Source: Syntrophobacteraceae bacterium
Lineage (GTDB): Bacteria; Desulfobacterota; Syntrophobacteria; Syntrophobacterales; Syntrophobacteraceae
Assembly (NCBI GenBank): GCA_013314815.1
Contig: JABUEY010000024.1
Span: forward strand, 1-37,147
DNA: 37,147 nt
Direction: 5' to 3'
The notes under the pieces are model-generated. The model was not told the DNA's origin and did not search any database. It saw only the letters and a program-made list of their open reading frames with translations. Made by a program: the position numbers and the translations under genes. Every line of letters starts with the position of its first letter. Within the stretch, counting starts at the first letter, position 1. Positions 9,749 through 32,818 of this stretch are shown here, piece after piece.

Positions 9749-10136
9749 GATTATCTCCTCTTTTGAAAGATCCATCATGCCATGCCGGGACACCGCTTTT
9801 CGCCGAAGATGGACCCCGGTATCTCGACGTTTCCAAACCTGTTTCCATCGTAGCACAACCGTTCCGGCATGCCATACCCTTATTGCCCGGAATTCTCTCG
9901 GACGAAGCACTGTCCCGGTCGACGAGTTACAAGCGCCTGCCCGCCACGCTGTTTCACTCGATCCCGTTCCGCTTTCGCATCCCTGCAGAAGCGGAATTTT
10001 GCCCTTTTAAAAGACACGCCGGCGATATATCATTGAGTATATTTTTCCTGAATTTTCGCCTGGTCCACACCGGAGAGGAGGGAATTCTCTCCGCCATGTG
10101 CAGCGCGTAGCCTGAAATATGGGAGGCGTCGTCAAC
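9749..10136. other. Divergent intergenic region
   Basis: This 388-base gap separates the leftward zinc-ribbon gene from the rightward DUF1573 gene. It has an AT-rich patch around 10025-10050 (cgatatatcattgagtatat) that may hold the promoter of the DUF1573 gene. GGAGAG-N9-CTCTCC near 10072-10092 could form a hairpin in its leader. I see no gene here. Confidence 0.5.
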
Positions 10137-10562
10137 ATGAAATCCGTCATCTGTCTGTTTCTTCTGCTCCAGTTCGTCCTGTTCCCGCCTTTCGGCCCCG
10201 CATTCTGCGCTGACACACCACCCGCGCCGACGATTCCACTAACGTCTGAAACCGCAGCACACCGTCCTCATATCGAAATCCCGCAACCCGCCCATGACCT
10301 GGGCACCGTAACCGCTGATCGGGAGTTCGAACACACCTTCACCTTCAGGAACACGGGAACGGCGGTTCTGGAGATCGATAAAGTGGTGGTGGGATGAGGC
10401 TGCAAGGCCCGGTATACCCGGGCGGTCCCTCCCGGCGGCGAGGGATTCATCACGGTCTCCGTAGACCCCAGGATCTGCAAAAGCCTGAAAAAAACGTCCG
10501 TGGTCAAAACCAACGACCCGGCAAACCCTTCCCTGTGGCTCAACATGACCTGGCAGTTCTGA
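10137..10562 (+). CDS. DUF1573 family exported protein, probable selenoprotein
   Basis: The ATG at 10137 follows GGGAGG. Residues 1-25 are a signal peptide (MKSVICLFLLLQFVLF, cut near AFCA). The rest matches DUF1573: a strand pattern PAHDLGTVTADREFEHTFTF, then RNTGTAVLEIDKVVVG. An in-frame TGA (10395-10397) follows. The same frame then continues GCKARYTRAVPPGGEGFITV and ends NDPANPSLWLNMTWQF before TGA at 10560-10562. DUF1573 proteins normally have a Cys-Gly-Cys at this point, so the TGA replaces the first Cys and is likely read as selenocysteine (residue 87 of 141). The sequence after the TGA keeps the family features PPGGEG and the NDPANP strand, so the frame is under selection or very recently broken. 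The protein would act outside the cytoplasmic membrane, perhaps in redox chemistry. A Cys-to-stop mutation is the main alternative. Confidence 0.75.
10398..10447 (+). promoter_or_regulatory. Candidate bacterial SECIS region
   Basis: Just after the in-frame TGA are two perfect 6-bp hairpins. The first is GCCCGG-TATAC-CCGGGC (10407-10423). The second is TCCCTC-N8-GAGGGA (10426-10445), whose stem can be extended by G-T pairs. The loop of the second contains GGCG starting 36 bases after the TGA, at the far edge of the usual position of the G-containing apical loop. This was judged by eye, without folding energies. Confidence 0.5.
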
Positions 10563-30501: not shown

Positions 30502-30697
30502 CGAAGCAAAGGAGGCCCTGGAAGGTCATAAGGCAATGCGTGCGAAAGGCGGATATCCATACCGGGAGAGCAAACGAGAGGAAACAGACGGCTTGAAACC
30601 TCGCCGGACCGGCTCAGCCGCCGGATGGCATCTTTTCAGGATATCCCAATTATCCCAAACCAGGAAGGAAAGCGGGGACGAATGCGGTGCGGCGGCC

Positions 30698-32818
30698 TCA
30701 GCGACAGCTCATAAACCCGGGGGGAACCCTGTCGCCGGAGATCAGGAAGTTCAGAAACGATTCCCCTTTTTCCGTCAGCACCGTGCCCTGCTTGGTGGAT
30801 CCGACGTGAATGAGGCCGGCATGTCTCAGGATCTTCAAGTACGTCTTCATCCTTCCTTCCGTTACGAAATGATTGTGGTGCAGCAGTTCCTTCATCAGGG
30901 ATTTTCTGCCGTTGAGGGAACGCCTGCGGCGGCGCAGGGTGCTCAGGACACACAAGAGCGGCTCCAGGGGCGCCGAACTCCTCACGAGGTCTTCCATGAT
31001 GACACGGTGAGAATCCTCTTCCTTCGATTCCTGGCCGGGCTGAGTGATCAGGATGTCCGCCAGGCTTCCCGGCAGGTGCTCCGGTTCGACAACTCCTGCG
31101 CTCCTTGCAGAAATGCAGATGTATTCCGCCAGGTTGATCAACTCCCGCTTATTTCCCGGCCATCCGTAGCGCATGAAGCATTCCACGGCGGCAGGCGAGA
31201 AATCACGGTGGATTCCATACCGTTCCGTGAGGTACCTGTCGAGCAGGTACAGGATATCCTCCTTGTGATCCCTCAAAGGAGGAATCTCGAGAGGAAGAGT
31301 GTTCAGCCTGTAGTAAAGATCCTTTCTGAATTTGCCTTCCTGCATGGCCTCGTTCAGGTTCCGGTTGGTGCCGGCGATGATGCGAACATCGACGGGGGTG
31401 ATTCCACTGCCGCCCACCTTCATGATCTCCTTTTCCTGGAGGACTCTCAGGAGCCTGGACTGGACATTGAGGGGAGCATCTCCGATTTCATCCAGAAAGA
31501 TCGTTCCGCCGTGAGCCTGTTCGAAATAGCCTGTTTTTCCGCTCTTTTTCGCACCCGTAAAGGCACCGGGATCATACCCGAACAGTTCGCTTTCGATGAG
31601 CCCCTCCGGAATCCCGGCGAAATTCACCGCCACAAAAGGCCCCTCCCGTCGAGGGGAACTGCCGTGGATCGCGTGAGCGAAAAGCTCCTTCCCCGTTCCG
31701 CTCTCGCCGGTAATGAGAATGTTCTTCTCCGTCGTGGCAAAGCTCAGGGCCTTGTCCTTCAGCTCCCGGATCACCCGGCTGTTCGTCCAGATTTCGTCGA
31801 AACTGTACTTGGTGATGTATCCCTTCCGGGCCAGGCGCAGTCTTACGTCCTTTTCCAGCCGCTGGATGCGCGCGATCTCCCGAAAGGTGTAGATATGCCT
31901 GACGACGTTTTCGCTCGTTACGGGGATCTTCTGGATGAGCACCTGCTTGCTGTCGTATTCGTAAATGGACGAAGAACGGAAATCTTCGTGAGATTCATCC
32001 ATCAGGTTCGTGGTATGCTTGAAAACCGACAGCAGTTCATAGATGTTCGAAGACAGCAGCGCTTCGGTGCTCGTCCTCAAAAGCCTGGCCGCCGACTTAT
32101 TGGCAATGTCGATATCCCCCGCATCGTTGGCCGAAAGAAGGCCGTCCTCGAACTGGTCGAGGATGACTTCCTGGTACTTGCGCAGCAGTTCGGAATGTTC
32201 GAGAACAGCCGCCAGCTTGCGGCTGGATTCCATGAGGAAGTTGTGGGTGTAGGTCGCGTAGTTCTCCAGGTATCCCGGGTCCAGGTTCAGCGCGACCAGA
32301 AGCCGAAAGAACGAATGGATGCTGATGATCCGGGGGCCGATGTCGATCAGGTTTGGAATCCTCACCGGACACAAATGAAACATTCCCGGTGAAACGGCCG
32401 TGCCGATTTCCCTGTAATCGCGCCTGGATCCCCTCCAGTACGGCACGTAATCGATGTGAGTGATGCCGATGTTTCTCAGCGACTCGATGGTGTTCTCCGT
32501 GGCCGAGCGCGGATCATTCACCACCAGGACTTTCGTCCCGCGGGGAAGCATGAGCACCTTTTCGAGATTGTATCCCGTGATCAGCCGAGTCGGGGCAATG
32601 ATGACTGCATCCGGGTATATGGCCCTCACCCGCGGCACGAGAAACGCTCCGGACGTCATCACCACGTCGGTCGGAATCGGCTTCAGAAGCCCCTCCTCCA
32701 GGGACTGCCCGTATACCTTCACCTCACTGCCGATGATATTGTGGATGATGGCCCGCAGGAAATTGGTGACCTTCCTGTCCAGCGAGATGATCAAAAGGGT
32801 TTTCTTCTGTGCCGCCAT
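30698..32818 (-). CDS. Sigma-54-dependent transcriptional activator with unusual C-terminus
   Basis: The ATG at 32818 follows GAGG at eight bases; the product has 706 residues. Residues 1-200 form a sensory region (AAQKKTLLIISLDRKVTNFL, later EVKVYGQSLEEG), somewhat like PrpR/receiver-type folds but without a clear phosphorylation site. A PAS domain follows (about 215-310, ILDQFEDGLLSANDAGDIDI). The AAA+ domain has Walker A GESGTGKE (371-378), GAFTGA (418-423) for sigma-54 contact and GGTIFLDEIGDAP. The C-terminus lacks a Fis helix-turn-helix. It reads like a winged helix (LMKELLHHNHFVTEGRMKTY, then LIHVGSTKQGTVLTEKGESF). It is flanked by sigma-54 promoters for both neighbouring operons, so it is the likely regulator of the island. 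The signal is unknown. Confidence 0.93.
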   Translation of the reverse strand: MAAQKKTLLIISLDRKVTNFLRAIIHNIIGSEVKVYGQSLEEGLLKPIPTDVVMTSGAFLVPRVRAIYPDAVIIAPTRLITGYNLEKVLMLPRGTKVLVVNDPRSATENTIESLRNIGITHIDYVPYWRGSRRDYREIGTAVSPGMFHLCPVRIPNLIDIGPRIISIHSFFRLLVALNLDPGYLENYATYTHNFLMESSRKLAAVLEHSELLRKYQEVILDQFEDGLLSANDAGDIDIANKSAARLLRTSTEALLSSNIYELLSVFKHTTNLMDESHEDFRSSSIYEYDSKQVLIQKIPVTSENVVRHIYTFREIARIQRLEKDVRLRLARKGYITKYSFDEIWTNSRVIRELKDKALSFATTEKNILITGESGTGKELFAHAIHGSSPRREGPFVAVNFAGIPEGLIESELFGYDPGAFTGAKKSGKTGYFEQAHGGTIFLDEIGDAPLNVQSRLLRVLQEKEIMKVGGSGITPVDVRIIAGTNRNLNEAMQEGKFRKDLYYRLNTLPLEIPPLRDHKEDILYLLDRYLTERYGIHRDFSPAAVECFMRYGWPGNKRELINLAEYICISARSAGVVEPEHLPGSLADILITQPGQESKEEDSHRVIMEDLVRSSAPLEPLLCVLSTLRRRRRSLNGRKSLMKELLHHNHFVTEGRMKTYLKILRHAGLIHVGSTKQGTVLTEKGESFLNFLISGDRVPPGFMSCR

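Follow-up and report, generated by a model that had tools for sequence, protein, structure and literature searches.

An In-Frame UGA Probably Encodes Selenocysteine in a Putatively Exported DUF1573 Protein of a Syntrophobacteraceae Bacterium

A short DUF1573 protein is encoded on a 37,147-nt stretch of DNA from a Syntrophobacteraceae bacterium (contig JABUEY010000024.1, positions 1–37,147; hereafter the window), and its reading frame, 10137–10562, runs through a single internal TGA at 10395–10397. This UGA very probably codes for selenocysteine (Sec), which would make the gene a selenoprotein gene; from comparative sequence evidence, we put the probability of this reading at roughly 0.93. The genome assembly to which the window belongs comprises 4.06 Mb in 245 contigs. 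The frame translates as MKSV...VVVG-U87-G-C...WLNMTWQF. An earlier note on the window had placed the TGA at the Cys-Gly-Cys site of the family, with DUF1573 sequence on both of its sides. When Cys was put in for the TGA, residues 47–131 matched Pfam DUF1573 (PF07610) (5.1e-15, 55.7 bits; gathering score 26.1 bits), and the window copy scored 48.7 bits in the genome search. Thus, the domain match crosses the TGA, in agreement with the note.

Conservation of the UGA Codon and Presence of the Selenocysteine Machinery

Three orthologs (L077, L078 and L090), defined by their tree position (96% in the SH-like approximate likelihood ratio test, SH-aLRT) and a common WLNxTW-like end, all keep the TGA (3/3). 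Their identity to the window gene was 48–54% after the TGA versus 39–43% before it, and the proportion of nonsynonymous differences (pN) was well below that of synonymous differences (pS) on both sides. The decay of the frame behind the TGA in relatives, named in the earlier note as an outcome that would speak against Sec, was not seen; the downstream part was the more conserved one. Each of the five DUF1573 genes of the window genome is interrupted by a single TGA, and always at this site. Among 126 distinct related domains, 110 have TGA here, 14 have a Cys codon, one a Thr codon and one a Trp codon. Since these domains were gathered with Sec-inclusive family profiles and the PPGGEG pattern, 110/126 is not an unbiased census. 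The homolog alignment suggested in the note gave close relatives with TGA and some others with Cys.

The genome carries selA (split over two contig ends), selB, selD and a tRNA-Sec gene with a TCA anticodon (selC), as the note had asked to be confirmed. Two hallmarks of a bacterial selenoprotein are present, i.e., an in-frame UGA aligned to the Cys of homologs with conservation on both flanks, and SelA, SelB, SelD and tRNA-Sec together in one genome.

Several further observations were made on the site and the machinery. The relatives with neither Sec nor Cys were L039/L097 (Thr, ACA) and L081/L105 (Trp, TGG); the latter retains the distal Cys described below and part of the downstream stem, which suggests that Sec was lost recently. 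TGA was also found at the site in L134 (Gemmatimonadetes) and L149 (CSSED10-310), and Cys in L102 (Krumholzibacteriia) and L125 (Hydrogenedentes). Thus, the Sec form extends beyond Thermodesulfobacteriota if these bins are clean. Genome G092 of the same phylum, a 99%-complete single contig (L049, L179, L182, L187), has genes for SelB, tRNA-Sec and a DUF1573 protein, the last with a TGA, and gave no match to SelA (PF03841, TIGR00474) or SepSecS (PF05889); either some unrecognised enzyme serves as its Sec synthase or the assembly has a gap. The window genome has a TGA-free selD copy on contig C98 and a second selD (L171, G000:C33:38009–38932) with one in-frame TGA, which is probably a selenoprotein SelD. 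The viral contigs searched contained no relative.

The SECIS Region Downstream of the UGA

The UGA would be decoded by SelB and tRNA-Sec, directed by hairpins just downstream that form a putative selenocysteine insertion sequence (SECIS). The proximal hairpin (10407–10412 paired with 10418–10423) has 6 bp, a TATAC loop and −12.7 kcal/mol on its own. In the distal hairpin (about 10424–10433 paired with 10437–10447; core −11 to −12.5 kcal/mol), a GGC apical loop, the probable SelB contact, begins 37 nt after the TGA. The two hairpins and the 36-base spacing given in the earlier note were correct; the description of both hairpins as perfect did not hold for the distal one, where one C (10439) is bulged. 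The published bacterial SECIS model requires an apical loop of 3–9 nt with a G within its first two positions, an upper stem of 4–16 bp, a spacing of 16–37 nt and a minimum free energy (MFE) ≤ −7.5 (PMC13188914). With its loop, its energy and a spacing of 36 nt, the distal hairpin, including the bulge, lies within these limits, so that the SECIS check proposed in the note was positive. Most relatives have one codon more and a spacing of 39 nt, just beyond the published range; here, the effective distance may be reduced by the proximal hairpin.

The 54 nt that follow the TGA had an MFE of −25.5, whereas synonymous recodings averaged −17.3 (z −2.35, p 0.003). The corresponding z averages were −1.64 for 59 Sec genes and −0.96 for six non-Sec copies, which is not a significant difference (Mann–Whitney p 0.06). 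In 54 aligned relatives, 83.6% of the cells of both hairpins were paired, versus 78.8% in shuffled and 44–57% in slid controls. The hairpin pairs showed 43 two-sided changes, counted on the named structure instead of the RNAalifold consensus, and none of 500 shuffles reached the covariation score. The clearest covarying pair, columns 15–33, consists of two third-codon positions (GC 13, CG 12, UA 7, UG 5), a variation that would not be expected from protein selection alone. In the PPGGEG codons of the distal hairpin, the first Pro was CCT in 29/33 and Glu was GAG in 33/33, against a GAG background of 43% elsewhere in the same domains. A covariance model of the 54 relatives, from which the window gene, L077 and L078 had been left out, had 10395–10448 as its sole match in the window (44.8 bits, E 4e-11); a sequence-only model scored 36.2 bits there, and base pairing added 8.6 bits.

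Two Positions for a Candidate Partner Cysteine

All 110 Sec domains have at least one candidate partner Cys. The Cys two residues on (UGC) was the only one in 78 domains, a Cys about 27 residues on was the only one in 28, and both occurred in four (the window protein, L077, L078 and L120). In the distal-only form, for example with LNPKSC, the first Cys is replaced, mostly by Ser, Thr, Leu or Val, and the proteins are mostly short, single-domain and of signal-peptide or lipoprotein type. The exclusivity of the two positions gave a Fisher value of 3e-22 with no phylogenetic control; only 2–3 phylogenetically independent pairs were available for the swap, and these gave no significance. We read this pattern as a selenenylsulfide partner of Sec that may occupy either of two positions, and the window protein has a Cys at both. 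Somewhat short of even odds, and thus tentative, is the wider proposal that exported selenoproteins with an immunoglobulin (Ig)-like fold carry a resolving Cys either two or about 27 residues off, with the window protein and two orthologs as intermediates and a tandem-hairpin SECIS. The alternation of partner cysteines looks to be the less known aspect, and a limited literature search found no paper describing it.

Predicted Fold and Proposed Function

An N-terminal hydrophobic signal is present, and the protein is probably exported by it, in line with the export stated in the earlier note. AlphaFold2, run with an alignment of 49 sequences, returned a confident beta-sandwich; for most of the domain, the predicted local distance difference test score (pLDDT) exceeded 90, and the model points to the MSP/PapD/ASH class. 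The closest solved fold in the Protein Data Bank (PDB) was 2qsv, a functionally uncharacterised protein from Porphyromonas gingivalis W83 (Z 14.3, root-mean-square deviation 1.8 over 100 residues; 21% identity). HYDIN, VesB, OCRL, CEP192 and MSP domains followed, while a PDB search by sequence gave no meaningful match. In the model, Sec87 lies in the turn joining strands 78–84 and 89–93, and Cys114 in the loop joining strands 102–109 and 118–125. Loops of these kinds are at the same end of Ig-type sandwiches. Sec87 would form a reversible selenenylsulfide with Cys89 and/or Cys114, and this centre would reduce a peroxide, a disulfide or a similar substrate in the cell envelope. That Sec87 is a redox centre is the reading we favor, with reasonable rather than high confidence, and the presence of a candidate partner Cys in every collected Sec domain (78/28/4/0) supports it.

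Alternative Explanations

A genuine stop at the TGA, with a truncated or decaying pseudogene and a residual frame behind it, would agree with automated ORF calling, which ends at this codon and splits the gene as the earlier note had predicted. The recurrence of the TGA in the window gene and three orthologs, with purifying selection after it, in 5/5 DUF1573 genes of the genome and in 110/126 relatives, together with the conserved SECIS hairpins and the full sel machinery, makes this very improbable. An equally slim chance is left to the decoding of UGA as another residue by a near-cognate tRNA for Trp or Cys. One relative (L081/L105) does have TGG at the site, and others have Cys, but the genome encodes tRNA-Sec and SelB, and it is specifically a SECIS-type element that is conserved. 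With Sec as the preferred residue, SelB might bind the proximal hairpin (10407–10423) instead of the distal one; this is rather unlikely, even if the proximal hairpin sits at a typical distance and contains pair 15–33, where synonymous covariation is clearest. As to function, the main rival is a binding site for a metal, a metalloid or a selenium species, formed by Sec87 with Cys89 and/or Cys114, in place of a redox centre that turns over. Such a site would agree with a non-enzymatic, Ig-like fold that carries two or three Se/S ligands, with fold relatives that are mostly binding or scaffold domains, and with the finding of no redox partner gene nearby. Bacterial selenocysteine, however, mostly serves redox chemistry, and in the collected set Sec is always accompanied by a candidate Cys, which fits a selenenylsulfide pair, although ligands would likewise be required for a metal site. 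We consider the binding site doubtful and retain the redox centre.

Some results weigh against the interpretation given here. The folding z-scores of single genes overlap with those of the six non-Sec copies, perhaps due to recent Sec loss in several of these. The RNAalifold consensus retained no more than three distal pairs; its weakness is partly due to register changes of the proximal stem among distant relatives. On the tree, about four changes of partner-Cys state suffice, so that few independent events are represented. Finally, the window gene and its orthologs have no conserved neighbours that would hint at a substrate; the neighbours of the orthologs are unrelated, and therefore the gene context gives no functional clue.

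Relation to Known DUF1573 Selenoproteins

The earlier note had regarded the protein as a new selenoprotein from a family not usually listed as such. This part was not upheld. DUF1573 (pfam07610), with the motif UGC, is listed as a selenoprotein family in two reviews (PMC9312934, PMC13188914), both of which credit Zhang & Gladyshev 2007 (NAR 35:4952), a study on the Olavius algarvensis symbiont. The best NCBIfam match, NF041425 (residues 49–138), is named ‘OS_HP2 family (seleno)protein’. Against this model, the window copy scored 74.3 bits (68.2 bits in the genome search), below the cut-off of 100 bits, which the long paralog L001/L036 of the same genome exceeds (108 bits). Thus, the window gene adds a divergent new member to an already known selenoprotein family. 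It shares the Pfam domain, the U-Gly-Cys motif and the broad group Thermodesulfobacteriota (formerly Deltaproteobacteria) with the listed selenoprotein, but it is short, single-domain and probably exported, with an extra distal Cys, whereas the reviews give UGC only. In comparison with NF041425 OS_HP2, it falls into a divergent short subfamily. It resembles the short UG[S/T/L/A/V] copies (L003, L004, L090 and others) in its exported or lipoprotein layout, in the place of Sec and in the Cys about 27 residues on; unlike these copies, where the second residue after Sec is not Cys, it has both.

Features of the Gene and Other Observations in the Window

The coordinates of the gene and its elements are given in Table 1. 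A second in-frame ATG lies upstream, at 10119. The two neighbouring genes, which encode a zinc-ribbon protein and RsgA, lie on the minus strand.

Table 1. Coordinates of the DUF1573 selenoprotein gene and its elements in the window.
Feature	Position	Strand	Details
Selenoprotein gene (probable)	10137..10562	+	141 aa + stop; Sec = codon 87; terminal stop TGA 10560–10562; orthologs L077, L078, L090
Probable ribosome-binding site GGGAGG	10121..10126	+	10 nt 5' of ATG 10137; from sequence
Putative N-terminal hydrophobic export signal, residues 1–25, MKSVICLFLLLQFVLFPPFGPAFCA	10137..10211	+	from sequence
DUF1573 domain, residues 47–131, across the TGA	10275..10529	+	Pfam match
In-frame TGA, probable selenocysteine, U87 of U-G-C	10395..10397	+	TGA in window gene and three orthologs; 110/126 family domains
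Cys89 codon, first candidate Sec partner	10401..10403	+	sequence and family alignment
Cys114 codon, second (distal) candidate Sec partner	10476..10478	+	sequence and family alignment
SECIS region, proximal hairpin	10407..10423	+	folding and alignment of relatives
SECIS region, distal hairpin, GGC apical loop, 36-nt spacing	10424..10447	+	best match to bacterial SECIS model

The Rfam scan of the window gave no match to a SECIS family; elsewhere in the window, it matched a group II intron domain (RF00029, 27829–27907, minus strand, 52.2 bits). A 618-aa ORF with no Pfam match (30536–32392, plus strand) lies near an aminotransferase and an aldehyde ferredoxin oxidoreductase.

Conclusions

The many homologs strongly support the view that sulfate-reducing and syntrophic bacteria use selenium in a group of cell-envelope proteins, and ordinary ORF calling halves each such DUF1573 selenoprotein. 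The alternative partner cysteines provide a direct, testable hypothesis on the chemistry of DUF1573 selenoproteins, and cultured relatives, i.e., Desulforhabdus sp. TSK, Desulfoferrobacter suflitae DRH4 and Desulfacinum infernum, make its testing practical.
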